Source of the DNA: a virus
Length of the DNA: 33,876 nt
Direction: 5' to 3' (one strand)
IMG/VR virus record: IMGVR_UViG_3300005581_000066
Location: 1 to 33,876 of that record
Of this stretch, positions 2,358-19,260 are shown one piece after another (positions within the stretch are counted from its first letter, which is position 1; each line of letters begins with the position of its first letter). Under the pieces are notes generated by a model. That model was not told the DNA's origin, searched no databases, and was given only the letters and a program-made list of their open reading frames with translations. A program made the position numbers and the translations under genes.

Positions 2358-3028
2358 AAGTTAAACTTGTATCATACTCACAACCAACAGATGAGTTCCG
2401 CCAACAGAATATTACAGATGCACTAGACCTTGTTGCATACTGTGCTAGAGTTAGTAATCCTGCTAATCAATTTAATACAGAAACTAGTGAAAAACTAATT
2501 AAGTATTTGATTAAGCATCAACACTGGTCGCCACTTGAAATGGTCAGTGCCTGTATTGAAATTAAAACTACACGCGACATTGCTCGACAAATTTTACGTC
2601 ATCGTAGTTTTAGCTTCCAAGAGTTTAGCCAACGCTACGCTGATCCTACAGCAGAGTTAGATGAAGCGTTTGTATTACGCGAAGCAAGATTTCAAGATAC
2701 AAAGAATAGGCAAAATAGTGTTGAGTTGGACATGAATGATGAAAAACAAAAACTATTAGCTGTTGAATGGGAAAGGGCACAACGGCGGGTGTTATTTTCA
2801 GTTAAACAAGAGTATTCTTGGGCTATTAAGAATGGTATTGCCAAAGAACAGGCTCGTGCTGTTCTTCCAGAAGGTCTTACAATTAGTCGTATGTATATGA
2901 ATGGTACATTACGTAGTTGGATACACTATATTGATCTACGTAAAGAAAACGGTACACAAAAAGAACATATGGAAATTGCGTTAGCTTGTGCTAAAATTAT
3001 TGCAGAAATTTTTCCGTTAGATCGTTAA
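2354..3028 (+). CDS. thyX: flavin-dependent thymidylate synthase ThyX
   Basis: ThyX converts dUMP to dTMP using FAD, NADPH and methylene-tetrahydrofolate, supplying thymidine for phage DNA synthesis in the host cytoplasm. The family signature RHRX7S is present: RHR at residues 82-84 and Ser92 in RHRSFSFQEFSQRY. The C-terminal region GLTISRMYMNGTLRSW fits the nucleotide-binding part. The 224-residue length is normal for ThyX. The ATG overlaps the upstream stop (ATGA). Its stop codon overlaps the stop of the convergent radical SAM gene by four bases (3025-3028), so no intergenic terminator separates the two transcription directions. ThyX is common in T4-like marine phages, replacing the td/ThyA type. 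Confidence 0.97.
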   Translation: MKVKLVSYSQPTDEFRQQNITDALDLVAYCARVSNPANQFNTETSEKLIKYLIKHQHWSPLEMVSACIEIKTTRDIARQILRHRSFSFQEFSQRYADPTAELDEAFVLREARFQDTKNRQNSVELDMNDEKQKLLAVEWERAQRRVLFSVKQEYSWAIKNGIAKEQARAVLPEGLTISRMYMNGTLRSWIHYIDLRKENGTQKEHMEIALACAKIIAEIFPLDR

Positions 3029-4194
3029 TTTTCAAAAGTTGTATCGCCCGGCCACAGAGGTAACTTTGTTCCGGGCGCTCTCTTGGGTATTTTACTGTCG
3101 GCACTACTAACACAGCTTTCGCTGATACAGGGTTTAGGACCATCAAATAGTTTAAATCCTGTCTCAATGTTTCCTAGAGGAGCATCTCCACAACTGTAGC
3201 TACGTTTAATGCTGCCGTCGGGTTCACGAATAATAATTCCTCTATAACCACTTGAACATTCCCAATCTTTAAATTTGTTAAAATTAAAAGCATTAAAACG
3301 TTCTGCTTGATCTATATACCAAATTTTGTGTTCACTGTCTCTAAACTCTACTTGAAAGTGTTGTGGTACTTTACTCTGTGCTTCTTGGTATATAGGATCA
3401 GGAGTTTTAAAAAACTTAGGTTCAGGTCGTTTTACCAGTTTGGCGAGTGCGGATTTTGTCTCAGTAAATGCTCGTTGTGGCATTCCGTTGTGCAGACGCT
3501 TTAACATTTCGTCAGTATATCCATCTACAACACGACTGGCAGTAGGATCACTCTGCGGCTTTAGTGTAACGTTGATACCTTGATTGTGAAAGAACAATGC
3601 GTTATCAAAATCACGTTCAAACCATTTGGGAACCATAACCATGTTAATGGTTATCTGCACATCATGCTGTTGACATAAAATTAATTTATTTGCAAACTCT
3701 TGCATCTTTTCGGGTGTGTCTACATGTTCAGTATGTAGACTTGCTGTAATACTAGCACGATGAAACTTGCTAACGGCAGGGCAATACTTCTCTTCAAACC
3801 ATTTAAGTGGTCGACTCATATTGCTAGTCATATGCACACTAGTATAGTTTGTGTTATCTACATCATCGTTTAGGTAATTAAGGATGTCAATGTAACCAGG
3901 ATGGAAAGTAGGCTCTCCTCCACTAAGACTAAAATGGAAACTATTAAAATTACGTTCTCTAGCTTGTCGTTTGATTTCGTCTATTGTCTTTAAACACAGT
4001 TCAGTTGGTCTATGGTCCTTGCTGTCGCTTCGTGCATATGGCCAACAGTAGCTACAACGGTAATTGCAGTATCTGCCCAACAACCAACTAACTGTAAATA
4101 GGTCTTTGTACAACATTGTACGCTGTCCAACACGAACAATATCATTGTAGGGAATTTGTGTGAAGTCATAGGCACTCCAACTTAGGTCATTCAT
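3025..4194 (-). CDS. radical SAM protein with C-terminal SPASM-like Cys cluster (rSAM1)
   Basis: Radical SAM enzymes use a [4Fe-4S] cluster to cleave S-adenosylmethionine and start radical chemistry. The cluster motif CNYRCSYC is at residues 43-50 (Cys43/47/50) and the SAM-binding GGEP at 92-95. The C-terminal part has Cys in the SPASM-like layout: CSSGYRG, then a PDGS turn, SCGDAPLGNI, and CISESC, suggesting auxiliary Fe-S clusters. Such enzymes modify peptides, proteins or sugars; the substrate here is unknown. It is the last gene of the island, two bases after the SGNH gene upstream, and it overlaps thyX convergently. One 60-base line of its 3' end hand-counts to about 47% G+C, well above the adjacent SGNH genes, suggesting a different origin. 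Confidence 0.88.
   Translation of the reverse strand: MNDLSWSAYDFTQIPYNDIVRVGQRTMLYKDLFTVSWLLGRYCNYRCSYCWPYARSDSKDHRPTELCLKTIDEIKRQARERNFNSFHFSLSGGEPTFHPGYIDILNYLNDDVDNTNYTSVHMTSNMSRPLKWFEEKYCPAVSKFHRASITASLHTEHVDTPEKMQEFANKLILCQQHDVQITINMVMVPKWFERDFDNALFFHNQGINVTLKPQSDPTASRVVDGYTDEMLKRLHNGMPQRAFTETKSALAKLVKRPEPKFFKTPDPIYQEAQSKVPQHFQVEFRDSEHKIWYIDQAERFNAFNFNKFKDWECSSGYRGIIIREPDGSIKRSYSCGDAPLGNIETGFKLFDGPKPCISESCVSSADSKIPKRAPGTKLPLWPGDTTFEN
3045..3077. other. GC-rich inverted repeat at the convergent gene junction
   Basis: CGCCCGG (3045-3051) pairs perfectly with CCGGGCG (3071-3077) across a 19-base loop. It lies inside the last codons of the radical SAM gene (codons for APG and PGD), just beyond the thyX stop. 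Seven G-C pairs are notable in AT-rich DNA. Neither side has a clean U-tract, so it is not a classical intrinsic terminator; it might slow or end transcription from either direction. Confidence 0.35.
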
Positions 4195-4217
4195 AATTAA
4201 CTTTTTCTAAAATAATA
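4192..4217 (-). repeat. 26-base direct repeat, copy A
   Basis: Covers the last codons of the first SGNH gene (YYFRKS stop), the TT spacer and the ATG of rSAM1. It is identical at 24 of 26 bases to 4893-4918, the junction on the other side of the same SGNH gene. The pair frames one gene unit (period 701 bases) and marks a past duplication or recombination. Confidence 0.85.
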
Positions 4218-4895
4218 CTCAAATGGTTGAGTGGGATTAATAAACATACTTTTATCAAGTGTGGGATATATGTCATTTATAATACAATGATGCATATGTT
4301 TTCCTAAAATTAAATTGTTTTCTTCGCTCATATGGCATTTTCTAGCATCTTGGAATCCCTCTATTTCATGAAATTGTTGTTTGTTAAAATATTCAAGTTC
4401 TAATTCACTAACACCGCCTATTACAGAGCCATAGGCTACCTCAATTATAAATCCAATAGGACATTTACGTTTAATATCATCTATCATTAGTTGATGAAAA
4501 TGTTCATCAGATTCGTTATAAGTATACTTAAAAAACATATCCATTGCAGTTAAATGTGCTAATTTTTCCGGAGAATGTTTTTGTTTTTCTAACATATATT
4601 GAGTATTCGAAGGATTCCAATTACTACCAAATTCTTCATGATCGCCTGGCATATGAGCAAATCTTCTGCAAGAATTAGTTATTAAAAAAATTACTTTATC
4701 ATACTTAGACAGATCTGTTTTATCAAATATTCTTTTAGAAAAATATAAACTAGCTCCGCCTCCACAAAAGTTATCCACATTGTGAAATTGTCGTAAGTAA
4801 TCAATCCAGCTAGGCCCAACATCTAACCATCTATTTTTATCTTTCCAGTTTATATGATCGTCTCCAAAGCTATCACCAAATATTGCTATTTTCAT
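4197..4895 (-). CDS. SGNH/GDSL-type hydrolase paralogue 1, 232 aa
   Basis: SGNH hydrolases are esterases or acetylhydrolases with a nucleophilic Ser in a GDS block. Here IFGDSFGDD puts that Ser at residue 9, and DARKCHMSEENN near the C-terminus would supply the Asp-His pair. A glycine-rich turn (CGGGASLYFSK) fits block II. The usual block III 'GxND' is not recognisable; the matching strand reads IFLITNSCRR. In glycan clusters such proteins often add or remove O-acyl groups; the role here is inferred. It has no signal peptide, so it is cytoplasmic. It is one of three tandem paralogues, two bases before rSAM1 and 23 bases after paralogue 2. The flanking 26-base repeats suggest it was gained or duplicated as a unit. 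Confidence 0.78.
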   Translation of the reverse strand: MKIAIFGDSFGDDHINWKDKNRWLDVGPSWIDYLRQFHNVDNFCGGGASLYFSKRIFDKTDLSKYDKVIFLITNSCRRFAHMPGDHEEFGSNWNPSNTQYMLEKQKHSPEKLAHLTAMDMFFKYTYNESDEHFHQLMIDDIKRKCPIGFIIEVAYGSVIGGVSELELEYFNKQQFHEIEGFQDARKCHMSEENNLILGKHMHHCIINDIYPTLDKSMFINPTQPFEYYFRKS

Positions 4896-4918
4896 AATTA
4901 AAATTTTCTAAAATAATA
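4893..4918 (-). repeat. 26-base direct repeat, copy B (relic of an SGNH gene 3' end)
   Basis: In the gap between SGNH paralogues 2 and 1. Read on the minus strand it gives YYFRKF plus a stop, then TT and the ATG of paralogue 1, matching copy A (4192-4217) at 24 of 26 bases. It follows the TAA of paralogue 2 directly and in frame, so that gene's end reads HYFRKRLW-stop-YYFRKF-stop. Confidence 0.85.
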
Positions 4919-5680
4919 TTACCAAAGTCTTTTTCTAAAATAATGAGTGCGATCTCTAACTGGATTTACAAAATCATTTTTATTTAAGTAAACTGAGTCA
5001 CCTTGCAAAAATTTTAATATTTGATCTGCTAGTATTTTGTGATTCTCTTCATTCATATGGCATTTTCTAGCATCGTGTAATTCAGGAGAGTTTGGCATAT
5101 TTTCTCCTAATCCAAAATATAATGTGTCTTTTTGTGAGATATCTAATAATGTCGAAGACCCTGCCGTATCTAGACTAGGAATAGAACTAGGAAATGCAGG
5201 AATTAACACACTATCTGGTCTTTTTTCTTTAATGTCATCTAAGATTAATGAATGTATAGTATGATCAAATTGATCATTCTGTATGTATAGGTAGTAGTCC
5301 CTAACTGCCATTAAAAAGTTTTTTTCTATTAAATTATAATTATTAAATTTTTTCTTATCTTCTATAATAGAAAAAACTGAAGACAAGTTATAAAATGTCT
5401 TATTAATTTCATTACATCCGTCTGGTAATTTATCAAAAGTGATTCTGCGACAAGGAAAAGTTACTACAAAAATTATCTTATCAAAATTTTTATAATGTTG
5501 GTCAAATAGTTTTTTTGACCAATATGTGCTTGTAGCAGAACTAGCAAAATTTGTTATTTGATAGTTAGTAGTATTTCGTATATGATCTATCCACGAATGC
5601 CCTATATCTGCCCATTCAATATCCCATTGGGGACTAGTATCATGGGCAAAACTATCTCCAAAAATAGCAAGAGTGGTCAT
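4919..5680 (-). CDS. SGNH/GDSL-type hydrolase paralogue 2, 253 aa
   Basis: Same family as its two neighbours: IFGDSFAHD at residues 6-14 carries the candidate nucleophile, and DARKCHMNEENH near the C-terminus carries the candidate Asp-His. Block II is degenerate (NFASSATSTYWSK lacks the glycine run of its sisters). The strand that would carry block III reads IFVVTFPCRR, with no Asn, so catalysis may differ from classic SGNH enzymes or activity may be lost. The centre is longer than in paralogue 1. The ATG overlaps the upstream paralogue's stop (ATGA at 5677-5680). The end is odd: HYFRKRLW-stop is followed in frame by a relic YYFRKF-stop. The gene is very AT-rich; one sampled 60-base line counts 25% G+C. 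Confidence 0.75.
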   Translation of the reverse strand: MTTLAIFGDSFAHDTSPQWDIEWADIGHSWIDHIRNTTNYQITNFASSATSTYWSKKLFDQHYKNFDKIIFVVTFPCRRITFDKLPDGCNEINKTFYNLSSVFSIIEDKKKFNNYNLIEKNFLMAVRDYYLYIQNDQFDHTIHSLILDDIKEKRPDSVLIPAFPSSIPSLDTAGSSTLLDISQKDTLYFGLGENMPNSPELHDARKCHMNEENHKILADQILKFLQGDSVYLNKNDFVNPVRDRTHYFRKRLW

Positions 5681-6432
5681 AGTGTTTTTGGTCTCCAGTA
5701 GTGATCTAATTTCATAGGTGGCTTAACAAAATCATTAATGTCTAAATGTACTGGTTCTCCAGATAAAAATTTTAACATTTTGCGATAGAATATAAAATTG
5801 TTTTCTTCACTCATATGACATTTTCTAGCATCAACTCTTGTAGAATGTATTTTATGATATAGTTTTAAATATGTATTATTACATAGATATTCTAGTTCCA
5901 TGTGACCTATTTCACACATTGCTTTATGTGTTAAATTAGGTATACTATTGTGGAAACAAGGTATAATAACAGTATCGGGTCTAATTTTTTTTATAGCATC
6001 TACCATTAACCAATGAGAGTCTTGATCATACTCATCGTTTTTTACTAATAGAAAATAATTTTCAATAGCAGTTAATTGAGTAATTCCATGAGAATGCGGA
6101 TTTAATCGAAGTAATTCTTTTTTCCATCTTACTACTTGATCGTAGTTAGGATGGTGTTTTTGACTACGTGCTAGATTAGAAAAATCTTCAATTTCTATTG
6201 TTAGTCTACCAGGGCTTGTAATCATAAAGATAATTCTGTCGTGTTCGGCATGAGTATCCTTAAATTGATTAAAGCTGTAAAATAGTGAAGCACCACCTTC
6301 AGCATAATTTGAAACACTATTATGTCCAGTCATTCCTAGCAATTGTGTCCAGCCTGGGCCTACATCATTAAATCTATGTGGCCATTGTGAGTTATCATCA
6401 CCAAAACTATCTCCATAGATTCCTATTTTCAT
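5677..6432 (-). CDS. SGNH/GDSL-type hydrolase paralogue 3, 251 aa
   Basis: First of the three to be transcribed. IYGDSFGDD at residues 5-13 is the Ser block; NYAEGGASLFYS matches the glycine turn of paralogue 1; DARKCHMSEENN near residue 210 is the Asp-His block. The block III strand is IFMITSPGR, again without GxND. N-terminal FNDVGPGWTQLL parallels LDVGPSWIDYL in paralogue 1, so 1 and 3 look closer to each other than to 2 in these motifs. The ATG overlaps the stop of the dehydrogenase-like gene (ATGA). An esterase or acyl-transfer role on a sugar is plausible from context only. Confidence 0.76.
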   Translation of the reverse strand: MKIGIYGDSFGDDNSQWPHRFNDVGPGWTQLLGMTGHNSVSNYAEGGASLFYSFNQFKDTHAEHDRIIFMITSPGRLTIEIEDFSNLARSQKHHPNYDQVVRWKKELLRLNPHSHGITQLTAIENYFLLVKNDEYDQDSHWLMVDAIKKIRPDTVIIPCFHNSIPNLTHKAMCEIGHMELEYLCNNTYLKLYHKIHSTRVDARKCHMSEENNFIFYRKMLKFLSGEPVHLDINDFVKPPMKLDHYWRPKTL

Positions 6433-6983
6433 TTAGTCAATTCCTGTTTTATATCAATACTTATTTCGTTAATACAAATATCTTTAGGTTGATCAATTAG
6501 CCATTTAATATATTCAGCTGTTTTACTAATAGGCATGCAGGTTCTGTCAGGGTGCTTATGTTGTACATTAGATAAACTTCCAAAACTTATTAATGTTATT
6601 TTAGGAGCAGTCCCCCAAACACCATTTATTCCTAGTGTGTTGCAATAATCTCTAAGAGCTTTTTTTTCTGCATTGTACAACCAAGCACCGCCTTTTTTTA
6701 CACGATCGGTTGTTGATCCTACGCAAATAATATGAGGGTAATGTTTATTGTCAATACAAGATTTATAAATTTGATCAAGTAAGACCGTTTGATTAAATTT
6801 CCATAATGCAGAATTGTTTATAATTACATCATAATCAAGGACTAGCTTAGATAATCGTTGCTGGCCTTCTTGTGACGTTAAATCATATCCATTAATTCTA
6901 CTAACAAATGTTGCATCTGGATATAGAGCATGTATTTCTTTAGCTATTCCCGTCTGTGGGTTCCCGGTCATTAAGATTTTCAT
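6429..6983 (-). CDS. short-chain dehydrogenase/reductase-like protein, 184 aa
   Basis: Rossmann-type oxidoreductase using NAD(P). An N-terminal beta strand leads into TGNPQTGIA (residues 6-14), a variant of TGxxxGIG; NNSA at 56-59 corresponds to NNAG; Ser90 (VGSTTD) and Y103-x-x-x-K107 (YNAEK) form the Ser-Tyr-Lys active site. At 184 residues it is short for the family (usually about 250), with a reduced C-terminal substrate region but a complete catalytic set. The ATG at 6983 lies 44 bases inside the upstream radical SAM gene; a second Met at residue 5 would remove the first strand, so the upstream start is preferred. In this cluster it may oxidise or reduce a nucleotide sugar (inference). 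Confidence 0.8.
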   Translation of the reverse strand: MKILMTGNPQTGIAKEIHALYPDATFVSRINGYDLTSQEGQQRLSKLVLDYDVIINNSALWKFNQTVLLDQIYKSCIDNKHYPHIICVGSTTDRVKKGGAWLYNAEKKALRDYCNTLGINGVWGTAPKITLISFGSLSNVQHKHPDRTCMPISKTAEYIKWLIDQPKDICINEISIDIKQELTK

Positions 6984-8223
6984 AATTTAAAATGTTTTTA
7001 AGATCAGGAAATATTTCCCAGTAATTTTTATTTTTTAGGCGGCCTTGTTCTTCAAACCATCTAATAGCATCATCTATTTTAATTTTATTTCTCTGCTTGC
7101 CTATTACATGCACTTTAATTCTGTTTAAATAATTTATCTGCTGTTCTCTATAACTAGAATTAGGAAGTTGGCGCATTACTTCTGCTGCTTTATCTAAGTA
7201 AGTAGAATAATGAGTGGGCAACAATGCTGGCATTAATTCAAAAGGCCAGGTAACTAAATTAGTACCAATTTGCCAAGTATTACCATACTCCGAAACTGGC
7301 TTATATTCTTTTGCTAGGTCGATAAACCATTGCAAAACTTCATGGTAATGTTGTACATTTAAACAGCTTAATGTAGGCAATAGATCAAGTCTATGTAGTC
7401 TAGGTTCTGTCATTAAAAGTCGTAAGTTTTCTTCAAATCTTGAAAAATCTAATCCATCTCTTATTTCTTCACCTATAGTACCCAATGCATCTAAACTGAA
7501 TGCTACAGAAAATTTATATCTAGGATGTGCTTTAACATATTCAAGAAATTTTTCAATTGTTCGCTTCTTAACATTTAAATTAGATGTAAACTTAAAAGAA
7601 ATATATCGAGAACTATGTTTTCCCCATGTTTTATCATGGATAGAAATAATCTTTTCCATAATATCAAAAGTTTCTAATTCTAGAAAAGGCTCGCCGCCTA
7701 AAAAATTATAAGTTAACGGAGTAAAATCAAATGTTAATTTACATTCTATATACTCATATAACGCTTGTAAAGTAGCATCTTTCCACGCAGTATCTACTAT
7801 AGGAATTGTACCTTTAAGTTTAGCCCATTCACTACTTACTTGTTCTGTACAATACATGCATGTTTGATTGCAAGTTGTACTTAACATTATTTCAACGTTT
7901 CTTGTAAAGTCAGAATCCATTAAACTATCAAGTGCAACCGGTGACCATTCTCTATATTTCCATTCGTTCCAGTTTTGCCAAATACTAGCCGGGTGGGAGT
8001 GTTTACAATGGCTGCAAGTTTTAGGAAAATCATTGTTTTCTATAAAGTATTTTTTATCTTCCAACAATTCTCTATTTTTCACAAATACGTTTCTGCCATA
8101 AGATGTAATCTCATCAGGAGAAAGCATTTGCGGTTCTCTTTTACAACAATTTTTTATTTCTTTTGTTGGGACATTAACATTGATGTCAGTCCACATTTTA
8201 CTGCAAGCAAGATGTTTTGTCAT
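6940..8223 (-). CDS. radical SAM protein with N-terminal twitch/SPASM-like domain (rSAM2)
   Basis: The core cluster motif CNQTCMYC is at residues 118-125 and LGGEP at 175-179. The N-terminal 75 residues hold extra cysteines, C7, CC26-27 and CSHC at 70-73, the pattern of phage radical SAM proteins with an N-terminal twitch-type auxiliary cluster domain, which is also present in rSAM3 and rSAM4. LFWFEEQGRLK-like C-terminal features are not diagnostic. The substrate is unknown; a peptide, protein or sugar is possible. The ATG overlaps the stop of the nitroreductase-like gene (ATGA at 8220-8223), and the 3' end overlaps the dehydrogenase gene by 44 bases. It is AT-rich; one sampled line is about 27% G+C. 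Confidence 0.85.
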   Translation of the reverse strand: MTKHLACSKMWTDINVNVPTKEIKNCCKREPQMLSPDEITSYGRNVFVKNRELLEDKKYFIENNDFPKTCSHCKHSHPASIWQNWNEWKYREWSPVALDSLMDSDFTRNVEIMLSTTCNQTCMYCTEQVSSEWAKLKGTIPIVDTAWKDATLQALYEYIECKLTFDFTPLTYNFLGGEPFLELETFDIMEKIISIHDKTWGKHSSRYISFKFTSNLNVKKRTIEKFLEYVKAHPRYKFSVAFSLDALGTIGEEIRDGLDFSRFEENLRLLMTEPRLHRLDLLPTLSCLNVQHYHEVLQWFIDLAKEYKPVSEYGNTWQIGTNLVTWPFELMPALLPTHYSTYLDKAAEVMRQLPNSSYREQQINYLNRIKVHVIGKQRNKIKIDDAIRWFEEQGRLKNKNYWEIFPDLKNILNYENLNDREPTDGNS

Positions 8224-9332
8224 AGTCCTAAGTGGTACCTTACATATGTAGAAAGTTCTGGTTTGTTGTCAACATCTTTGTTAGGGATGCCTACCATTTT
8301 GTGTATTAACGGACTATAATACTGTGTTGCTCCTTGTTTTTTATGCCCGATTCCCATAAAAACTATTACTTCATTTTCAATGTCATGGCCTAACATTTTA
8401 GAAATACCTGGATGGTCTTGAATACAAGCACAAAATCCAGTATCTAATCCCTTAGCATGAGCACTGAGCATAGCAAACATACTTGCAATACCAATTTCAT
8501 TTTGCATTACTTGTTTGTTATAAGTTGCATTTTTCATTTCGTGATTAAGATTGATGCCGTCGTCATCTAAAAATCTAAAAGAGAATGCAAGTATCCACGG
8601 TGCTAACAATTGAGGATTCCTAATATCGTCCATTTTTCCTTTAGCCTTGCGATCAGCTGTTTCAAAAATTTTAAATCTTAATCTAGGAACTCCTGTAAGA
8701 GGAGTAGCAGTTGACGGACCTGTTTGTACAATATTAATAAATTCAGTTGCACACAAATTAAAATGATCTACTGAACCTTCTTCTGAAGAGTTAGTATTAT
8801 CAATTATTTGTAATGCAACACTTTGATTAGTGGGGGCGGCGATTTGTGGAAGTATATAATTAGCTATTAAATCTTTTAGATAATTATGAGCATCAATTTC
8901 TGCAAACTGTCTAACTCTAGAAACACCGTTCTTCCAGTATCTATTACCTATTTTTAAAGTTTGTTCGTTAGTGTCATATCTTAAATCATTAAGATAACCA
9001 TCAATTACATATCCAACATCTCTAGTACATTTTGCCGAATCATACTGATATCCAGAATACAATCCTTCAGCAGTTCGGGCATGTTGAGATACAAATGCAA
9101 CTACTTGTTCAACTGCAAAAGATTTATTTTTTAATAAAATGTCATGGGCATTAGGTCTTACATTAGGATCAGTATTGTCAATCACATCAATGTAATAAGG
9201 AACTTTACGCTGCTTACTAGGACAATGATCATGCAGTTCTTGAATTATTTCATCAATTAACTGCTTTGATGGTACAGTGTCTTCCCAGGCATATGTAGTT
9301 GATCTGCTTTCTAAAATTTGTTGCCATTCCAT
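8220..9332 (-). CDS. nitroreductase-like flavoprotein (tentative), 370 aa
   Basis: The N-terminus ILESRSTTYAWEDTVPSKQL has the 'R.S...f...pVp...l' look of the FMN-contacting start of nitroreductases. Near the C-terminus GIASMFAMLSAHAKGLDTGF resembles the 'G.a.qnl.LaA.alGLgs' helix, followed by a VFMGIGHKK strand. Members reduce nitro groups, quinones or double bonds, or do thiazoline/flavin chemistry, with FMN. At 370 residues it is much longer than the usual 180-250, and the middle (about residues 60-290) does not match what I know of the family, so assignment is tentative. It sits between two radical SAM genes, two bases after rSAM3 and overlapping rSAM2 by ATGA, suggesting a redox partner or a further step in the same pathway. 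Confidence 0.5.
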   Translation of the reverse strand: MEWQQILESRSTTYAWEDTVPSKQLIDEIIQELHDHCPSKQRKVPYYIDVIDNTDPNVRPNAHDILLKNKSFAVEQVVAFVSQHARTAEGLYSGYQYDSAKCTRDVGYVIDGYLNDLRYDTNEQTLKIGNRYWKNGVSRVRQFAEIDAHNYLKDLIANYILPQIAAPTNQSVALQIIDNTNSSEEGSVDHFNLCATEFINIVQTGPSTATPLTGVPRLRFKIFETADRKAKGKMDDIRNPQLLAPWILAFSFRFLDDDGINLNHEMKNATYNKQVMQNEIGIASMFAMLSAHAKGLDTGFCACIQDHPGISKMLGHDIENEVIVFMGIGHKKQGATQYYSPLIHKMVGIPNKDVDNKPELSTYVRYHLGL

Positions 9333-9334
9333 TT

Positions 9335-11442: not shown

Positions 11443-11457
11443 TTTAATTCTCCTAAT

Positions 11458-12858
11458 TTATTTAAAGATGTCAGACATTTCGGAAAAAGTAGTATAAAAA
11501 CTTATGTCTCTTTGTGCATCAATTTTTTCTAAATAATCTTTCATTTCTAGCAATCTTCCACTCCAATCTTCTGACTTCATGAAACTGATCATGCCTCTTA
11601 ATCTTTTTACACCATATTGATTATTCAACCACTGTTCTTTAGAAACCTTACCCTTGCTTTTTTCAGATAAACATAGTTCCCAGTTTTCTTCAAACCATGG
11701 TATAAATTCTTCATATTTCTTTTCACACGTATCTTTAAACCACTGTGGCAGTACTTTTACATTTAAAAATGCAGGCCAGTATACAAAATGATAGTTAATA
11801 CCACCTGCGCCTAATGGCCACATATTAATTTTCTTAAAATTCTGTTGTAATTTCCAACGTAAAAAATCTGGAATATAATAGATATTTAATGCATTAACTG
11901 CACAAGCTATAGTAACTTCTACATTGTCAGGTGTTTGCTCATCTAAAATTTTAAACACTTCTGTAGTTCTTTCCCACTTGCTAGGATAACGTATGTACTC
12001 ATTCATTGACCCTATACTGTCCACACTATAATGAAAGCGCACAATCTTAAAATGACTCCATAACTCAAATAGGTCTTCACGCCATTCAACTCCATTGCTG
12101 TTGTAACGTATCTCAATATCTTTAGCACGACCTTGACGAATAATTTCTTCAAGAATTTCGTAATGTTCGTCAATGATCAGCGGTTCTCCTCCGGCAAAGT
12201 AGACCTGTTGCATGTGGGGAATTTGTTCATAGAACTGCTGCCAGAACACAGGATTTTGTTTGTGCCAATTATAACTGCTGCCGTTGATGCTGCCTTTATT
12301 ATCCCATTGCCATATTTTTTTGACTCCCTCATTTTCTAATGTAGGAAATACTTTCTGCCAATCTTTGATCCAGCCACTGCTGTCATGGGGACTGCACATG
12401 ATGCAGGCTAGTTGGCACTTAGTCCCAAAACGCAAATCAATGTAGGCTAATTGTGGAGGAACACTGCCGTCTTCGTTAGTTTCATTAATCAACTTGTCTA
12501 CATCAACACGCTGTCTCCAATACTCAGTTTCCCACATTCTTTTACTGTTATGTCCCGCTGCTTCTTCTTTGTAGCATTTAGTGCAGCTAGGCGGTTGTTC
12601 TCCTGCAAGCATCTGCTTACGAACATTCTTCATGTAGTTGCTATTCCAGGCTGTTTGAAAGTCTGTGTTGTTGAGATTACTAGGTAAACCTTCATCGTTT
12701 TTAAGTACTCCAACTTGTGATCCGCCTACTTTTTCTTCGTTAGTGGCGGCGACACCGCTAGCATTAGCCGTGCAACATACTCGCATACTACCGTCAGGGC
12801 GTGTGCTAAGATGTACCCAAGGAAGGATACACCATGTTTTAGAAGGGTAATTATTCAT
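11458..12858 (-). CDS. radical SAM protein with N-terminal twitch-like domain (rSAM4)
   Basis: The largest of the five radical SAM proteins (466 residues). The N-terminal auxiliary domain has C10 (TWCILPWVHLSTRPDGS), CC28-29 and CTKC at 92-95. The core motif CQLACIMC is at 148-155 and AGGEP at 222-226. Paralogous to rSAM3. The C-terminal 150 residues are rich in Trp and charged residues and have no further Cys run. G+C is uneven: 60-base lines in the 5' half count about 48-52%, while one line near the 3' end counts about 28%, hinting at a mosaic gene. The ATG overlaps the rSAM5 stop (TAATG at 12856-12860). Substrate unknown. Confidence 0.88.
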   Translation of the reverse strand: MNNYPSKTWCILPWVHLSTRPDGSMRVCCTANASGVAATNEEKVGGSQVGVLKNDEGLPSNLNNTDFQTAWNSNYMKNVRKQMLAGEQPPSCTKCYKEEAAGHNSKRMWETEYWRQRVDVDKLINETNEDGSVPPQLAYIDLRFGTKCQLACIMCSPHDSSGWIKDWQKVFPTLENEGVKKIWQWDNKGSINGSSYNWHKQNPVFWQQFYEQIPHMQQVYFAGGEPLIIDEHYEILEEIIRQGRAKDIEIRYNSNGVEWREDLFELWSHFKIVRFHYSVDSIGSMNEYIRYPSKWERTTEVFKILDEQTPDNVEVTIACAVNALNIYYIPDFLRWKLQQNFKKINMWPLGAGGINYHFVYWPAFLNVKVLPQWFKDTCEKKYEEFIPWFEENWELCLSEKSKGKVSKEQWLNNQYGVKRLRGMISFMKSEDWSGRLLEMKDYLEKIDAQRDISFYTTFSEMSDIFK

Positions 12859-14030
12859 TATTTAAATTGTTCCTCAAATGCGTCATATTTTGTGCCGCAA
12901 GTTTTTGCACATACAGCAAGTTTGCCATCTGCGCAACTAGATTTTTTCCAACTATTAGGAATAAGGTCTTGCATAAATTTACCATTTACAATACTTTCTA
13001 AATTTAATTTAGTAGCATTGAGGTTGTCCTTGCCAACTTGTTCTATCAAGTTCCATATTTGTCCACCTTTAGGAGTCCAGTACCAAACATACATTTGTCC
13101 AGCTGTCCAACAACAAGGTTGCACAATACCTTCTGCTGAAATATAAAGACTTTTTTCTTCTGCTACTTTACATTTGATTGGAACTTCATCCCAATATTTT
13201 TCCATTGGTTTTTTCTTTTCAGTGTCTTTATGGAAGACTTGTGGAAAAATATACCCTGCTAAATCTTCTTGCTTACTTGGTAAAAATTTAATAGGGGCTT
13301 CTGATTTGGCAATCTTACTGAGTTCTTCTAAAGCAGCATTTCGATATTTAGGATTAGCAGGTGCTTGTAATAATGTAGTTGCGATTCCTTTACGATTAGC
13401 AGCTTGATGCATTTCTTTAGTAACACCGCTGGCATTACTAAAAAATCTAGCAGACTTTTTAAATTGAAATCGTTCAAACCCCATAGATTTTGACAATGCT
13501 TCTGCAGCATCTACTTGGTGTTCGTTATGTGCAAATACAATATAATCCCAACGTGCTCTGCCGCCGGCTGCAATAAATGCAGATGCATTTTCCATAATTT
13601 TAGACCAAACGGTATTTTGTCTATATAGATGATTAGTATCTTCTAATCCGTCTATACTAAAAGTAACGTATCCTTTAGGGCCTAATACTTGTGCAAGTGT
13701 TTTCCACCACTCAGGCTTCTTAGCCGACCCGTTTGTCATCATGCTGAGATTCATTTTAGGATTATGTTCTCTAAAATAAGCAAAGGCTTCTAATGTATCT
13801 CTTGCAACAATTGGATCACCATAGTTTCCACACATGTACATACGATCTAACTGTGCTATAAAGTTAGGTTCAAATATACGTTTAATATCTTCTATGAATA
13901 GTTCAGTACCCGGAAGTTGTGGATTTTCTTGACCGCCATTAATGTTACGAGCGCACATAGGACAGGCTGCATTACAGTTATCTGTAATTTCTAAGTGTAC
14001 TGCCTTAATTTCATTATATGTGTATAACAT
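12858..14030 (-). CDS. radical SAM protein with C-terminal SPASM domain (rSAM5)
   Basis: The core motif CNAACPMC is at residues 19-26, at the very N-terminus, so the twitch domain of rSAM2-4 is absent. The SAM-ribose/methionine region reads CGNYGDP (67-73) instead of GGEP, a variant seen in some radical SAM families, and FSIDGLEDTN (124-133) is the typical strand 5. The C-terminus has the SPASM layout: C287, then CC306-307 after an 'aeGiVqPCCW' turn, and C366, C374, C378. SPASM proteins bind auxiliary Fe-S clusters and act on peptides, proteins or aminoglycoside-type sugars. The ATG is coupled to the 72-residue gene (TAATG) and the stop to rSAM4. Confidence 0.88.
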   Translation of the reverse strand: MLYTYNEIKAVHLEITDNCNAACPMCARNINGGQENPQLPGTELFIEDIKRIFEPNFIAQLDRMYMCGNYGDPIVARDTLEAFAYFREHNPKMNLSMMTNGSAKKPEWWKTLAQVLGPKGYVTFSIDGLEDTNHLYRQNTVWSKIMENASAFIAAGGRARWDYIVFAHNEHQVDAAEALSKSMGFERFQFKKSARFFSNASGVTKEMHQAANRKGIATTLLQAPANPKYRNAALEELSKIAKSEAPIKFLPSKQEDLAGYIFPQVFHKDTEKKKPMEKYWDEVPIKCKVAEEKSLYISAEGIVQPCCWTAGQMYVWYWTPKGGQIWNLIEQVGKDNLNATKLNLESIVNGKFMQDLIPNSWKKSSCADGKLAVCAKTCGTKYDAFEEQFK

Positions 14031-14248
14031 TATTCCATCACTAATTTTATTTCTTTTGCAGGGCCAACACGACTAGGAAGGTCTCCGTACTTTTCTACAT
14101 AGTCTTTAATAACAGCTCGATACCAATTTTGACTGTTATGATAGGCTTGAACATTATACTTGTAGATGTTGTTATTTGTAGCTTCCATAACTGTTAATGC
14201 TCTAGCTGCTTCTTTTTGTAAGTCTCGTAATTCAAGATTGTCTATCAT
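14030..14248 (-). CDS. small hypothetical protein, 72 aa
   Basis: A short gene locked between the methyltransferase-like gene (ATGA overlap at 14245-14248) and rSAM5 (TAATG at 14028-14032), so all three are translationally coupled. The sequence is helical and charged: LELRDLQKEAARALTVMEAT, then NVQAYHNSQNWYRAVIKDYV and GDLPSRVGPAKEI. It has no Cys, no Gly-rich or Thr/Ser-rich core and no leader-peptide cleavage motif, so it does not look like a classic ribosomal-peptide precursor. A small partner or carrier for rSAM5 is possible, but only from position. Confidence 0.65.
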   Translation of the reverse strand: MIDNLELRDLQKEAARALTVMEATNNNIYKYNVQAYHNSQNWYRAVIKDYVEKYGDLPSRVGPAKEIKLVME

Positions 14249-15063
14249 GGTCTTCCTATAAGCATTACTCGCTTATACCCTTTAAGTTGAAGCTCACCTT
14301 CAAATAAAATTTCGTTCATTGGAAACTTCTTTTTCATATGGTTAACGCTATGCACACAATTAATATGGCCTTCACCATCAAACATATTATTGCTGTGTAT
14401 TGCCACAATAGGATTAGATTCTAGTTCTTTAAATCTAATCTGATGAAACCAATCTTCGCTCATGTGCTCTGCACTTGTGTTAATAATTAGGTCAGGTACA
14501 AATTTTTCTACATATTCTGTGTTTTCTTTAAAATTAGTAACAGGCCATTCGTATCCGTTTTTGTGCAATGTTAATTTGTTTATATCTGCACACACAGCTT
14601 TAACTTTATAATTTTCAAGATACTTTAAATTAAATGTATAATCGCTAGCTTCACAAAAAGATTTTTCAAGATCTAAAATTCTAATTTTGTCAAATTTTAA
14701 TATTTTATCATATATACTAACTAGCTGACCAAACCAGCCTCCCATAATTACAATATTGGAATATTTAATTCCTAATTTAGATAGTTCTTCTATAAGCCAT
14801 ATTTTACTTCGAATTTGACTTCTGCTTAACCCGTCTTTAATCGGTTGTATATCATTATTTTTAGAAAAGGAGTTAATTGAACTAAACAACTCGTCTCTGT
14901 TAAGTCGCTTAAGACAATAATTAAGCATAGACTCATTAACGTTTTCTGCTCTTAAGACATTAATGATATCATGTATAAACGCCCTGTCTTCTCCTTTTTT
15001 TAAAAACTCACAATAAGTTTCTAATCCAAATAATAACTCAACTGCATCGTTTTTATTTTCCAT
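14245..15063 (-). CDS. class I SAM-dependent methyltransferase-like protein, 272 aa
   Basis: The Rossmann-like core starts about residue 100: a strand with VIMGGWFGQL (105-114) is the glycine-rich SAM loop, RILDLEK puts an acidic residue (D132) at the end of strand 2 for the ribose, CADINKL follows about residue 158, and PDLIINTSAEHM (191-201) is motif IV. The 95-residue N-terminal helical extension is unrecognised. The substrate may be a sugar, protein or small molecule; context favours the glycan or radical SAM product. It overlaps the upstream glycosyltransferase-like gene by 11 bases and the 72-residue gene by four. It is strongly AT-rich, about 23% G+C in one sampled line. Confidence 0.7.
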   Translation of the reverse strand: MENKNDAVELLFGLETYCEFLKKGEDRAFIHDIINVLRAENVNESMLNYCLKRLNRDELFSSINSFSKNNDIQPIKDGLSRSQIRSKIWLIEELSKLGIKYSNIVIMGGWFGQLVSIYDKILKFDKIRILDLEKSFCEASDYTFNLKYLENYKVKAVCADINKLTLHKNGYEWPVTNFKENTEYVEKFVPDLIINTSAEHMSEDWFHQIRFKELESNPIVAIHSNNMFDGEGHINCVHSVNHMKKKFPMNEILFEGELQLKGYKRVMLIGRP

Positions 15064-15721
15064 ATTGTTTCTCTAACCATTCAAAATCATTGATCATTTT
15101 TAATGCGTCAACATTATTTGAATTGTTAGTTCCATATAATGCTCCTGCTTTAGCACCTGCTAATGCATAGTCTCCGTAAATTCTATCTGCACCTTTAGTA
15201 CACCATGCAGTTAATCTTTGCTGAGTTTCATCTGATTTTTGTCTATCAATTATTTTACTTGATAATTTACAACATTCTCTAAATGCACTCTTCCAAGTGT
15301 TAAAAGGATCACTGTTAAATGCTGTAATATTGCTAACTTCTAAAACTGGTTTAAACTTTTCACTAATACTAGTTGTCATATCTGGCTTTGTAACATCCAT
15401 ATTAATTGTCATACTTCTAGGTAATAACTTTACTCCGCCATTTCCATATTCTAAATCATTTATAGGATTGATACTTCTCCATACATGCACAGTGTCTAAC
15501 AATTTAGTTTTATAACTAAAATCAAAAGTATCAAGTATTACTGCATCACCATCTACAACCCAAAACATATGTGTGAAACATTTTTTTGCAGCCATTATAT
15601 GTGCTCGATGGATGCCTTTAACTCCATGCACACGTTTAGCCAAGGGAAATCTAGACGCTAATCTTTGCCAGTTTTCATCAGCATTAGGTTCATTATAACT
15701 TATAAAAACAATATCGTACAT
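15053..15721 (-). CDS. glycosyltransferase-like protein, paralogue A1, 222 aa
   Basis: N-terminal strand YDIVFISYNEPNADENW is followed by KRVHGVKGIHRAH and a VVDGDA motif (residues 55-60) that fits the DxD metal/nucleotide-sugar site of GT-A glycosyltransferases. YGNGGVKLLPR (92-102) is a conserved element shared with the next gene. GT-A enzymes move a sugar from a nucleotide donor to an acceptor in the cytoplasm. Donor and acceptor are unknown. It is about 85 residues shorter than its paralogue 15721-16647, mainly at the C-terminus. The start overlaps that gene's stop (TAATG); the stop lies 11 bases inside the methyltransferase-like gene. Confidence 0.65.
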   Translation of the reverse strand: MYDIVFISYNEPNADENWQRLASRFPLAKRVHGVKGIHRAHIMAAKKCFTHMFWVVDGDAVILDTFDFSYKTKLLDTVHVWRSINPINDLEYGNGGVKLLPRSMTINMDVTKPDMTTSISEKFKPVLEVSNITAFNSDPFNTWKSAFRECCKLSSKIIDRQKSDETQQRLTAWCTKGADRIYGDYALAGAKAGALYGTNNSNNVDALKMINDFEWLEKQYGK

Positions 15722-16647
15722 TACTCTATAACCCAGTTATTTTTCATACGAGGAGGATTTGTGTATAATGCTTTAAAAAATTTACTTTGATCAGCATCTA
15801 ATATGCTAGGTCCTGTAAGTATGCCTAACTGATCTCTTAGCTGTGTACCTAATTCTAACATTTCTGCAGACAAGTCAAAGTCAACACTTGTTTCTAAAGT
15901 ATTCCATAGACTATTGAGATACTTAAAATCTCGTACATTAGTATGATCCCAATCATCTTTAAGATTAGTCATCCAGCAACCCAATCTAGCACCGTACATG
16001 GCCCAAATACCGTGTTCAACATCTGCGCCAACATTCATCCATGTTACTAGTCTATGATAATTCTTCCAGTGAATTTGTTTGTCAAATGGTAAATCTTTTG
16101 AAGGCTTGCTACCTTCAAGTAAACTCATTTTTACACCTTCGCGGAATCCTGCTCGCCACGCCTGCTGGGGAGTAGCGTTATTATGTACATAACTCATACA
16201 GCTTTTTAACTGTAGATAGTTTATATCCCAACAAAAATCTACTTGAGTTTTATCATTTGTAGGATCAGCATTTTCATGAGTCTTCATGTTTAGCACTAAT
16301 TCTCTATCCCAGTTCTTAATTCCACCATTACCGTATTGTAAACCATTAATAATGTTTTCTGCCGCATATGATAGAACAGATTTAGACAGGTCTACTTCGT
16401 CAACAAATTCAACAGACTGTTGAATTAATTCAGGCTTAATAATATTGTCACCATCAATAATAGTAACACGGTCTGTTTCTGCAAGTCTTGCACAGGCCTT
16501 GTGTGCGCTGTCACTGCCGTCAACACCGTGAACACGTTTTGCCCAAGGAATCTTTGTTAGCAAGTCGGCATAATTTTTTTCAGCATTGGGTTCGTCATAG
16601 CTTAGATAAACAACATCATAGTCTATTAATTTAATTTTTTTAGTCAT
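15721..16647 (-). CDS. glycosyltransferase-like protein, paralogue A2, 308 aa
   Basis: Paralogue of the downstream gene: DVVYLSYDEPNAEKNYADLL, KRVHGVDGSDSAHKA, TIIDGDNII with Asp65/Asp67 as the DxD, and LQYGNGGIKNWDR (103-115) all line up with A1 in the same order. A C-terminal extension of about 85 residues (DFDLSAEMLELGTQLRDQLG and beyond) is absent from A1. Likely a tandem duplication with later divergence. The predicted role is transfer of a sugar to an acceptor; nothing shows which. It overlaps the unknown 190-residue gene upstream by eight bases. Confidence 0.67.
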   Translation of the reverse strand: MTKKIKLIDYDVVYLSYDEPNAEKNYADLLTKIPWAKRVHGVDGSDSAHKACARLAETDRVTIIDGDNIIKPELIQQSVEFVDEVDLSKSVLSYAAENIINGLQYGNGGIKNWDRELVLNMKTHENADPTNDKTQVDFCWDINYLQLKSCMSYVHNNATPQQAWRAGFREGVKMSLLEGSKPSKDLPFDKQIHWKNYHRLVTWMNVGADVEHGIWAMYGARLGCWMTNLKDDWDHTNVRDFKYLNSLWNTLETSVDFDLSAEMLELGTQLRDQLGILTGPSILDADQSKFFKALYTNPPRMKNNWVIE

Positions 16648-17212
16648 TTACTATTCCATAAGAATTAAAAAAGTTCTTAGTAAGTATGGCAATATTTTCA
16701 AAGTTATAATTTAAAGATTTTTCAACAATTCCATGCAGTTGAATGTCTTCTAAACTTACCTCTAAAGTTTCAAATAACCAATTATAATCGTTTTTATCAA
16801 CAATAAAAAATTGTAAGTTTCCGCTATATCCTGTAATGTCAGGATTAATTTTAAAAACTATTTTTTTGTCTTTAATAGATACTGCTAACTCAGGAGTAGT
16901 TTCACAAGCTGTTATTACAGAAAAATCTTTATAAACAGATTTAACATGCACAGTGTTTTCAACAAATTGTTTATTTCTACTACCTTTAACTTTAAAATTT
17001 TTATAATCTTTTTTACCTTCAAGGAAATCTTTAACTAAAGCTTCAGTAGTTTCAACAAAGTTTCCAGACTCTTTTTTTTCATTTGTAATTGAATATATGT
17101 TATTGTTTTCGTCATAATATACATAAAACATATTAGGAGCAGAAAACATTGTGTTTGTACGCAAGCGGTCTTCTTCACTTATAAAGTCAATGCCTTCAAT
17201 ACCTTGATTCAT
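16640..17212 (-). CDS. hypothetical protein, 190 aa
   Basis: Not recognised. The N-terminal half has a strand pair MFYVYYDENNNIYSITNEKK around residues 28-47, then a charged helix and a lysine-rich turn (EGKKDYKNFKVKGSRNKQF). The C-terminal half alternates short strands (FSVITACETT, KKIVFKINPDITGYSG, NLQFFIVDKNDYNWLFE) and ends in an amphipathic helix. There are no Cys clusters, membrane segments or nucleotide motifs. It looks like an all-beta plus helix cytoplasmic domain. It overlaps both glycosyltransferase-like neighbours (8 and 17 bases), so it is part of the same translational chain and may be an accessory subunit. Confidence 0.6.
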   Translation of the reverse strand: MNQGIEGIDFISEEDRLRTNTMFSAPNMFYVYYDENNNIYSITNEKKESGNFVETTEALVKDFLEGKKDYKNFKVKGSRNKQFVENTVHVKSVYKDFSVITACETTPELAVSIKDKKIVFKINPDITGYSGNLQFFIVDKNDYNWLFETLEVSLEDIQLHGIVEKSLNYNFENIAILTKNFFNSYGIVND

Positions 17213-18032
17213 ATACAGCCTCTAATTTTTTTATAATATCGTCAGTAAGAAAATCATTCTCAGTGTAATGAAAAACACCTGTTTGTAAAAAATTTGATAT
17301 TTTAAGATCGGCATGATCAGTAAACTGCATAGTAGTTGCCGATTGCCATGTATCTGGAATATCATGCCAGTTTTGTATTGCCGGCTTCATATGCGTAAAA
17401 GTTAAAGGATTACCTGTGCCAAATTCTTCTTTGGCATCTAATATTGTTGCTGCAATGGCCGATGATACATCCATACTACAAAACTTTTGAGGATTATTAG
17501 GAGTATAAATGCTGTAGTATTGTTTCCAGTTTTTTACAATAATTTCTAACCATTTGTAAAATTCATAAGATCTTTTATTTTTTTTAATGTAATGTATTCC
17601 AAAATACAAATCTGGTAGATTGTTTTCAACAAAAGATTTTCTATAAAAATTGTTAGTCACAATTTCGCCTTTGTATGTTTGTACATTTCCGGCTAATGCA
17701 ATATTTTTATTTTCTAAATAGTCCCACCAGTGATCATTAGAAGAACATACTAGCATGTCTGAATCGTAAACTAGTGTTTCCTGATAAGGGCTTGCATAAA
17801 TTATCTTCCATCTGTTTTCAATTTTCCATTCAGATTTTTCGGCAGCATCTCCCCATGGAATTGAAACTATGTGATCAAATGCTTTTGTATATTCAAACGG
17901 CACTGAATCATTTGTCATTAAACAAACGTTGTTTATTTTATTATGTTGTTTAATTGACAATGCTAATGCATAGGCTTGTCTAACATAATCAATATCAGAA
18001 TTTTGTGCAAAAATTAAATGTCCCTTAGTCAT
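17196..18032 (-). CDS. GT8-like glycosyltransferase, paralogue B1, 278 aa
   Basis: The N-terminal strand GHLIFAQNSDIDYVRQA is followed by a helix and VCLMTND, then SPYQETLVYDSDMLV (81-95), where Asp90/Asp92 is a DxD in the context typical of GT8 and related nucleotide-sugar transferases ('e.vlylDsDmlv'). FCSMDVSSAIAATILD and THMKP further on suit the later acceptor-side elements of that fold. Paralogue B2 upstream shares the order NSx...PYxETLVxDxD. The sugar and acceptor are unknown. It overlaps B2 by eight bases and the 190-residue gene by 17. Confidence 0.68.
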   Translation of the reverse strand: MTKGHLIFAQNSDIDYVRQAYALALSIKQHNKINNVCLMTNDSVPFEYTKAFDHIVSIPWGDAAEKSEWKIENRWKIIYASPYQETLVYDSDMLVCSSNDHWWDYLENKNIALAGNVQTYKGEIVTNNFYRKSFVENNLPDLYFGIHYIKKNKRSYEFYKWLEIIVKNWKQYYSIYTPNNPQKFCSMDVSSAIAATILDAKEEFGTGNPLTFTHMKPAIQNWHDIPDTWQSATTMQFTDHADLKISNFLQTGVFHYTENDFLTDDIIKKLEAVYESRY

Positions 18033-18849
18033 TCAACACCCTTAAAATACTGTGCTTGTTCATTACATGCACATCAACATCGGAAATTTTCAAGGCAGTA
18101 TATTCACCCATTGCATGTTCTTTTTCAACTAACAAAGTGCAGGATGTGGGTGTTGCGGCAATTAGAATATCCTTATCTGTAACATAATACATTCTTCCAG
18201 GAATTGTGTCAACATTATCGGTAACATAACCATTTAAGATATGTAACGAAATGCTAAATGCATAATCGTTTCTAAATTTCTTTTCAGGAATTTGATAGAT
18301 TAATCTATAGTAGTTCCAGTTTTGTCGTATGAAATCAACTAGATCGAACAGTATACGAGTATTGGGTGTTTTCTTAAAATATAACACTGTTGCCCAGTAA
18401 AATGGTATAGAATGTTGATTTACATATTTGAACTCGTTACCTGTTCTCCATCCTGTTAAGTCATATGAGTCTTTGTAAATTAAAAAATCTTTTTCTAACT
18501 TAAAACAATTTAATAAAAAATTACTGTTAACAAGATAATCTGCGTCAATAACTAGTGTTTCATCGTACGGAGTTAGATCATAACTTTGATATCGATTTGC
18601 ATTTTTCCAAACGTAAACATTTGATGCAATAGCACCATCAAAAAAGGTTTTAGTTTGTGTAGAAGTATCTTGAGAAAAAATTATTTTATCAAATACGGAT
18701 GTAAATATTTCTGGTAGCAAGGTCGTTGCATCAGTTACCAAACTAACTGGTAACTGTAAATGTTCTTTGACTCGTTTAGCTGCTGCCAGTGCAAGTTCTT
18801 GATAATTGAACTCACTGTTAAATGCAAAAATTAAAACTCCCTGTGTCAT
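18025..18849 (-). CDS. GT8-like glycosyltransferase, paralogue B2, 274 aa
   Basis: Opens with GVLIFAFNSEFNYQELAL, parallel to B1, then a VSLVTDATTLL strand and TPYDETLVIDADYLV (93-107) with Asp102/Asp104 as the DxD. FRNDYAFSISLHILN resembles the conserved downstream region of B1. Length is nearly the same as B1, so this is a full-length duplicate with substantial divergence. It is probably a cytoplasmic nucleotide-sugar transferase. The start overlaps the stop of the 114-residue gene by one base (TAATG), making it the second gene of the island in transcription order. Confidence 0.67.
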   Translation of the reverse strand: MTQGVLIFAFNSEFNYQELALAAAKRVKEHLQLPVSLVTDATTLLPEIFTSVFDKIIFSQDTSTQTKTFFDGAIASNVYVWKNANRYQSYDLTPYDETLVIDADYLVNSNFLLNCFKLEKDFLIYKDSYDLTGWRTGNEFKYVNQHSIPFYWATVLYFKKTPNTRILFDLVDFIRQNWNYYRLIYQIPEKKFRNDYAFSISLHILNGYVTDNVDTIPGRMYYVTDKDILIAATPTSCTLLVEKEHAMGEYTALKISDVDVHVMNKHSILRVLND

Positions 18850-19193
18850 TATGCTAGGATACTTTCTACAGATCTAGATTTTTTTAAATCTTCGTATTTT
18901 GTAAAATACAAATTATTAGCTCGTACATGACAATCTAATAGTTGTTCTAAAAAGTTAGAAAGACTTTTTACAAGAATTGGAATTCCATTACTATCAACTA
19001 TTACAGTTTCTTCTAACTCTAATAATTTTAGACTTTGAACATAGGAAATTAATACAGGAGTAGCTTGAAATGTGCCACCGTTATGAAAATAAAACAGTGT
19101 TTGTTCAAATTCTTCTTTTAAAATACGTTTTTGATTGGCCATAGTAGCCATTAAGTTGGCTATATTGAAGGCCTTAGTAACTTGCTCATTCAT
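18849..19193 (-). CDS. hypothetical protein, 114 aa, first gene of the island
   Basis: Unrecognised. It is mostly helical with two hydrophobic strands: FNIANLMATMANQKRILKEE, FQATPVLISYVQSLKLLELE, VIVDSNGIPILVKSLSNFLE. It has one Cys and no membrane segment long enough to span. GGAG precedes the ATG. It is the first gene after the only sizeable gap on the minus strand (62 bases, with a perfect hairpin), so it may head its own transcript. Being placed between tail genes and glycosyltransferases it could belong functionally to either. Confidence 0.65.
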   Translation of the reverse strand: MNEQVTKAFNIANLMATMANQKRILKEEFEQTLFYFHNGGTFQATPVLISYVQSLKLLELEETVIVDSNGIPILVKSLSNFLEQLLDCHVRANNLYFTKYEDLKKSRSVESILA

Positions 19194-19252: not shown

Positions 19253-19260
19253 AATTTATG
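19253..19260 (-). promoter_or_regulatory. possible T4-type late promoter element
   Basis: CATAAATT on the minus strand is one base from NATAAATA, the late promoter consensus reported for T4-like cyanophages. It overlaps the stop codon of the 319-residue tail gene and lies 59 bases before the island's first ATG. AT-rich DNA makes chance matches likely. Confidence 0.25.

Follow-up and report, generated by a model that had tools for sequence, protein, structure and literature searches.

Why would a virus carry five radical S-adenosylmethionine (radical SAM, rSAM) proteins and a set of glycosyltransferases (GTs) in one tight run of genes? The question arises from a 33.9-kb virus fragment (IMG/VR record IMGVR_UViG_3300005581_000066, positions 1 to 33,876; hereafter the window, in whose coordinates all positions are given), in which an island of minus-strand genes extends from 3025 to 19193. 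The original prediction had described this run as eighteen tightly coupled genes. Its coordinates and strand hold, as does the coupling, with 14 of the 18 gene junctions overlapping or abutting and a largest gap of 23 nt, but 19 open reading frames (ORFs) are called rather than 18. We propose, giving the idea an even chance of being right, that in uncultured jumbo T4-like phages the island serves to modify a tail-locus protein with a glycan, acting late and in the cytoplasm.

An alignment search with rS1 (3025..4194), the island's best-conserved gene, returned 37 loci at 63-100% identity (63-97% in other phages), including contigs of 383 kb and 400 kb. Alignments of conserved genes were needed to find relatives, as single-protein IMG/VR scans with NR and OG2, two genes located below, were insufficient and returned only the identical contig and one or two relatives. 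Twenty-one records of uncultured phages, the window included, share the island and were annotated across it. Because these records were chosen by rS1, the presence of that gene is not itself evidence, and what counts is the co-occurrence of the other island genes. Gene order is conserved in the 20 other records, which makes a chance arrangement most improbable. The shared frame leads from the tail genes through o18849 (18849..19193), GTd (18025..18849), GTc (17196..18032), a fast-evolving slot, GTb (15721..16647), GTa (15053..15721), MT (14245..15063), o14030 (14030..14248), rS5 (12858..14030) and cassettes to rS4 (11458..12858), and past rS4 through further cassettes, SDR (6429..6983), SGNH or other cassettes and rS1; then follow thyX (2354..3028, plus strand) and five opposite-strand genes. 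Ten of these genes (GTd, GTc, GTb, GTa, MT, o14030, rS5, rS4, SDR and rS1) form a constant core that keeps its order and orientation in most records; an rS4-family protein is present in 21/21, rS5 in 18/21 and SDR in 16/21. The small protein o18849 always adjoins GTd (14 records). The gene thyX is the conserved right boundary and serves as an anchor in 17/21 records; at the same boundary in record G017 (L043, 11713-13070), thyA-like and folA-like genes stand in its place, a non-orthologous replacement.

Around the constant core, the island carries exchangeable cassettes. In the window these are rS2 (6940..8223), NR (8220..9332), rS3 (9335..10576), OG2 (10525..11442) and the three genes SGNHa (4197..4895), SGNHb (4919..5680) and SGNHc (5677..6432); elsewhere, other rSAM, SGNH, oxygenase and sugar cassettes are found. 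In total, the 21 records encode 163 proteins with a CxxxCxxC motif, 5-12 in each, most of which fall into two dozen subfamilies, and the 383-kb contig packs twelve rSAM genes into 17 kb. According to the original prediction, scattered genes or unconserved motif residues in related phages would speak against a single pathway; both order and motif residues are kept in the 21 records. Its one-pathway proposal is borne out for the constant ten-gene core and not for the cassettes, which are exchangeable. The fixed slot between GTc and GTb is filled here by o16640 (16640..17212), with 27-28% identity to sister versions. It is the fastest-changing protein, about 28% identical or unrelated by BLAST, and groups F21, F27, F33 and F35 fill the slot; its product may be a virion or acceptor protein that is subject to diversifying selection.

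The sister phages are T4-like by their gp23-type major capsid protein (PF07068), which was found in the larger sister records (5 of 10) and is absent from the window fragment itself. The CobT proteins of the sister phages are nearest to those of jumbo myophages such as Phosso, PA5oct and Atu_ph07. Among the 50,697 records of cultured phages in INPHARED, neither rS1 nor GTb had a match and rS4 had only 24-29% matches in three records; judged by these searches, no cultured phage has the rS1/rS4/rS5 core. In record G018, from another phage lineage (L045/L068), a divergent set of rS1, SDR and rS4-like genes adjoins a tail-sheath-like gene and several 2-oxoglutarate (2OG)-oxygenase-like genes.

The site next to thyX was further examined independently of rSAM genes, by searching with the CobT gene, which lies beyond thyX as seen from the island. 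In 39 of the 60 CobT-anchored loci with sequence past thyX, GTa or GTb directly adjoins thyX, and two more (L217, L224) have GT genes at the site in longer ORFs, giving a GT total of about 41/60. A tail-fibre gene occupies the site in three loci and rS1 in eight; the remainder are other, and at least two of these (L202, L212) have rS1 beyond the flank. An rSAM above the Pfam cut-off was found in only 4 of the 20 CobT-anchored records searched, which are fragments. The site has three states, namely tail genes, tail genes with a GT module, and tail genes with a GT module and an rSAM block, indicating that the GT module of the tail locus can, but need not, be extended by an rSAM block.

Upstream of the island and reading into it lie the tail-fibre-like genes tf20226, tf21719, tf23557 and o25704 (20226..26315, minus strand) and, nearest to it, the tail-locus gene str19256 (19256..20215, minus strand). 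The T4-late-promoter core ATAAATA is avoided in these phages: the window has 2 matches against 22.3 expected, and the 21 records have 47 against 221 expected on the island strand and 38 against 192 on the other. Many of the intergenic copies in these records lie about 18-30 nt before o25704, tf20226 or str19256. The sole minus-strand match in the window (26343..26349) stands 28 nt before o25704 and precedes all the tail-fibre genes and the island. This placement suggests that the island is likely expressed late, together with the tail genes. Scans for sigma-70 promoters and terminators found no excess, the numbers being equal to those in shuffles. Just before o18849, in the only longer gap, lies an AT-rich 9-bp inverted repeat (ATAATTACA ... 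TGTAATTAT, 19200-19235), which could form a hairpin or serve as an operator where the tail genes and the island meet.

What the island builds is suggested by its sister versions, which encode a GDP-mannose dehydratase, a DegT aminotransferase, an NAD-dependent epimerase of the GDP-fucose-synthase type, a cytidylyltransferase/mannose-P isomerase, a UDP-glucose dehydrogenase and a carbamoyltransferase, and also FkbM methyltransferase, nucleotidyltransferase and Asp-hydroxylase genes. Such a gene set looks like glycan biosynthesis combined with peptide or sugar oxidation. The glycan role suggested in the original prediction is supported by these nucleotide-sugar genes and by the GT fold of GTb (see below). 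GT-rich, cassette-variable islands with nucleotide-sugar genes also resemble O-antigen loci, and the island could instead remodel the surface glycan (lipopolysaccharide (LPS)/O-antigen) of the infected host and exclude competing phages. This is how the host recognition clusters of pelagimyophages, in which GTs accompany radical SAM cassettes, are interpreted, as host O-chain modification (PMC7029224), and polysaccharide genes lie near some of the bacterial clusters described below. We consider this explanation unlikely. By hydropathy, none of the 417 ORFs of the island stretches resembles a multi-pass membrane protein, and the usual kinds of O-antigen/LPS flippase, polymerase and initiating transferase are thus missing, an absence that counts against O-antigen assembly and in favour of an acceptor in the cytoplasm. 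Moreover, the island sits behind late promoters with the tail genes, and relatives without GT or rSAM genes have a plain tail gene adjoining thyX.

The position in the tail locus, the late promoters, the three-state site and a str19256 homologue in a bacterial cluster together point to a tail-locus protein as the target, and str19256 or a neighbouring fibre is the likeliest candidate acceptor. The idea of virion-protein modification in the original prediction is favoured by this position and by the late-promoter layout, with substrate and product still at the stage of prediction. In a tblastn search, tf23557 matched minor-tail and tail-fibre proteins. The confident model of str19256 (predicted local distance difference test, pLDDT, 86) was matched in fold by only three entries of a viral fold library, one of them named from an uncultured Caudovirales phage; its top matches to botulinum toxin were rejected as noise (probability under 0.1, TM about 0.12).

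Five rSAM proteins had been claimed for the island, and all five were recovered. PF04055 is above its cut-off for rS1 (50 bits), rS3, rS4 and rS5 (38 bits, with SPASM at 17 bits), and rS2, which falls below it, is recognized through NF033640, a family of N-terminal-twitch rSAM proteins (158 bits, E=3.6e-46). By the curated cut-off of that family (170 bits), rS3 (385.8 bits) and rS4 (418.6 bits) are members with near-full model coverage, the twitch-type rS2 is just under, and rS5 (46.6 bits) and rS1 (41.7 bits) lie outside. In alignments of 17-30 homologues each, the catalytic cysteines are invariant in the rS1, rS4/rS3 and rS5 families; in rS1, these are C43/C47/C50 of CxxxCxxC, and a C-terminal Cys is invariant as well. 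The name of the NF033640 family itself assigns no reaction, and the sequences of the core enzymes rS1, rS4 and rS5 do not reveal their chemistry.

Peptide maturation is a frequent role of SPASM/twitch rSAM enzymes, and rS4 has a weak match to SkfB. The rSAMs might therefore mature a short precursor, such as the 72-aa o14030 adjoining rS5 or a secreted protein, into a ribosomally synthesized and post-translationally modified peptide (RiPP) or a similar small molecule, and small proteins with Tat- or lipoprotein-like signals do neighbour rS1 in Bdellovibrionota. However, o14030 contains no Cys and, instead of a variable core, shows conservation from end to end (56-94% identity); it was also not detected in the chromosomal clusters of Bdellovibrionota. 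The 417 ORFs contain no membrane exporter and the islands hold many GT and sugar genes, so that we regard a peptide product as quite unlikely. As a precursor, o14030 was rejected on account of its whole-length conservation; longer precursors keep some plausibility.

Of the remaining enzyme labels in the original prediction, the GT fold is supported for GTb, whereas the nitroreductase, SDR, SGNH, 2OG and methyltransferase labels are weaker and mostly residue-based. The AlphaFold model of GTb (pLDDT 90.7) matched SunS, PcManGT, RmlT, WrtF, K4CP and ppGalNAcT in Foldseek; every one of its best PDB fold matches is a glycosyl- or nucleotidyl-transferase, with the peptide S-glycosyltransferase SunS among them, and the matches are distant (TM-scores 0.25-0.36). 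The model supports a distant GT-A-like (GT-A/GT2-like) fold. An acidic DxD is invariant both in the family of GTb and its paralogue GTa (D65xD67) and in that of GTc and its paralogue GTd (D90xD92); for GTc/GTd, profile and PDB sequence searches gave no convincing match, and PDB sequence searches with GTb, MT, GTc/GTd and SDR gave weak matches. The C-terminal half of NR is nitroreductase-like (PF00881, 22.6 bits against a cut-off of 23.5), and its N-terminal half resembles phage tail-fibre proteins, residues 47-160 matching phrog_5342 and phrog_4527 (tail fiber). The short-dehydrogenase label of SDR rests on an invariant S90 and Y103xxxK107 along with weak SDR matches. In SGNHa, which occupies a variable slot, GDS is invariant and an unusual D-x4-H (D-x-RKCH, invariant) replaces DxxH, and Pfam gave no match; SGNHb (about 34% identity to SGNHa) and SGNHc (about 32-34%) are its paralogues. 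The Rossmann-like (methyltransferase-like) MT found no support in profiles, and its only match is a weak one to MJ0882 (E=0.28). OG2, possibly a 2OG/Fe(II) oxygenase, had no match in profile searches; an HxD...H was recognized by eye, and homologues occur in 4 sister islands.

The same core occurs outside phages. An rS4 alignment searched against GTDB genomes retrieved full-length orthologues (53-61% identity) on contigs of Bdellovibrionota, with rS1, rS5, GTa, GTb and MT alongside in varying combinations; the rS1 homologues are 56-65% identical, and the core overall about 42-65%. rS1 was present in 22 of 369 Bdellovibrionota genomes, compared with 1 of 398 in the phylum of G033, that one being a phage-like contig. 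rS5 was found in 25 of the 369, and 20 of the 22 genomes with rS1 carry both (Fisher p=2e-26; related genomes are not independent). Since housekeeping genes adjoin the cluster on several contigs, such as tRNA-synthetase and ribosome-related genes in L172, these clusters look chromosomal, as far as the binning of metagenome-assembled genomes (MAGs) can be checked. In L172/L179, homologues of str19256 (28%), o18849 (36%), GTd and GTc follow in phage order. Elsewhere, the neighbours of the core, named by eye, are prepilin-like proteins (L182, L183), Flp/Tad-like genes (L085) or small exported proteins (L174, L181, L079), and some clusters lie near polysaccharide genes. A small protein of 157-215 aa with a Tat or lipoprotein signal recurs near rS1 in L174, L079, L181, L182 and L183 and is a candidate substrate. 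Many further twitch-type rSAM genes occur on L184, L091, L100 and other Bdellovibrionota contigs, with 8 or more in 19 kb in L184.

In the rS4 and rS5 trees, the phage sequences fall into a single clade (83/65 and 99/99), and L172 stands beside the phage side for rS4; the rS1 tree departs from this pattern only in the divergent record G018. Transfers between phages and Bdellovibrionota thus seem to have been few. We considered whether the phages infect Bdellovibrionota; the shared core is no proof of this, and phage and bacterial sequences for the most part branch apart in the trees. Gammaproteobacteria (L082), Chloroflexi (L088), Acidimicrobiaceae (L089) and Neisseriaceae (L073) were rejected as hosts, because their MAG contigs (13-161 kb) have a phage-like island order or phage anchor genes (L082) and are probably phage contigs mis-binned in GTDB. 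The bacterial clusters also bear on whether the island has any joint function. The swapping of many cassettes between records would fit an unlinked pile-up of accessory genes at a hypervariable spot, yet ten genes hold their order and orientation in most records, and rS1, rS4 and rS5 stay with GTs or MT in Bdellovibrionota, co-occurring far beyond chance, which makes such a pile-up very unlikely.

GTs, 2OG-oxygenase-like enzymes and rSAM enzymes all occur in known DNA-hypermodification pathways, and the island adjoins thyX, so that hypermodification of phage thymidine or cytosine, with glycosylation, against restriction could be envisaged. It is hardly probable, given that the core is also found on Bdellovibrionota chromosomes, that its context is one of late promoters, that thyX is kept without adjoining rSAM genes and in one sister island gives way to thyA-like and folA-like genes, and that profile searches of the window gave no match to TET/JBP or hydroxymethyl-pyrimidine families.

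Under the proposal of a glycan-modified tail-locus protein, GTa-GTd would attach sugars to str19256 or a neighbouring fibre, and the constant rS1, rS4 and rS5, with SDR and MT, would remodel the sugar or the acceptor by radical chemistry, candidate reactions being dehydrogenation, deoxygenation, epimerization and cross-linking. The exchangeable cassettes (rSAM, oxygenase, nitroreductase-like, SGNH acyl-transfer/esterase and nucleotide-sugar genes) would vary the product, as in O-antigen loci, and the decorated fibre could alter receptor binding or shield the virion. On predator chromosomes, the same core may decorate a surface fibre or pilus. More tentatively, and with considerable doubt, we suggest that jumbo T4-like phages and Bdellovibrionota have in common a hitherto undescribed three-rSAM fibre/glycan pathway that places a novel kind of radical-made decoration on fibres recognizing Gram-negative prey, with exchangeable rSAM cassettes yielding variable recognition chemistry.

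Several points weigh against the proposal. Gene content and order, conservation, the shared core, the promoter layout and the GT-A-like fold of GTb are what the analysis shows, whereas the glycan product, its acceptor, the chemistry and the benefit are what we infer. str19256 has no annotated relative, INPHARED included, and no PDB fold match; most Bdellovibrionota clusters lack it, and pilin-like neighbours occur only in some. The single 23-kb late transcript is deduced from the lack of other exact motifs, and some islands contain internal promoter-like motifs or opposite-strand cassettes. Finally, the assignments of GTc/GTd, MT, SGNH and OG2 are weak. Nevertheless, a constant three-rSAM core that is optional at one site, accompanied by as many as 12 rSAM genes within 17 kb and present in predators too, amounts to a defined, testable pathway. 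If the proposal is true, oxygen-sensitive radical chemistry is used in the assembly of virions or predator surface fibres, part of the abundance of rSAM genes in aquatic viromes is explained, and many natural variants are at hand in which to look for new chemistry of sugars or peptides.

Glycosyltransferase-bearing phage islands are already known, as are radical SAM genes in marine phages. Some viromes are enriched in rSAM and GT genes (PMC7150976). A search of the open literature, with subscription papers outside its range, did not find the three-rSAM core, its Bdellovibrionota counterpart or the three-state site. The Bdellovibrionota clusters resemble the island in their orthologous core with GTa, GTb and MT, and one of them also in str19256, o18849, GTd and GTc, but differ in being chromosomal, in having prepilin-like, Flp/Tad and Tat-exported neighbours, and in usually lacking SDR or o14030. 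A conceivable type of acceptor, by analogy only, is offered by the mosaic adhesive trimeric fibres of Bdellovibrio (PMC10769870), which lie on the predator surface and are relatives of phage tail fibres; that paper mentions neither glycosylation nor radical SAM. Among cultured phages, KVP40-type Vibrio phages have twitch-type rSAM genes as in the island, and the KVP40-like K566 (L265, 161548-178915) carries at least five in about 17 kb, at least one of which is annotated only as hypothetical; compared with the island, its rSAMs are only about 18-26% identical, with no orthologue of rS1, rS4 or rS5 and no match to the GT module. The pelagimyophage cluster (Zaragoza-Solas 2020, PMC7029224) likewise belongs to T4-like aquatic phages and, in the accessible part of its description, lies between VrlC and gp14, whereas the island lies between tail-fibre genes and thyX. 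Unlike that cluster as described there, the island has a constant three-rSAM core, can hold as many as 12 rSAM genes and has its counterpart on Bdellovibrionota chromosomes.

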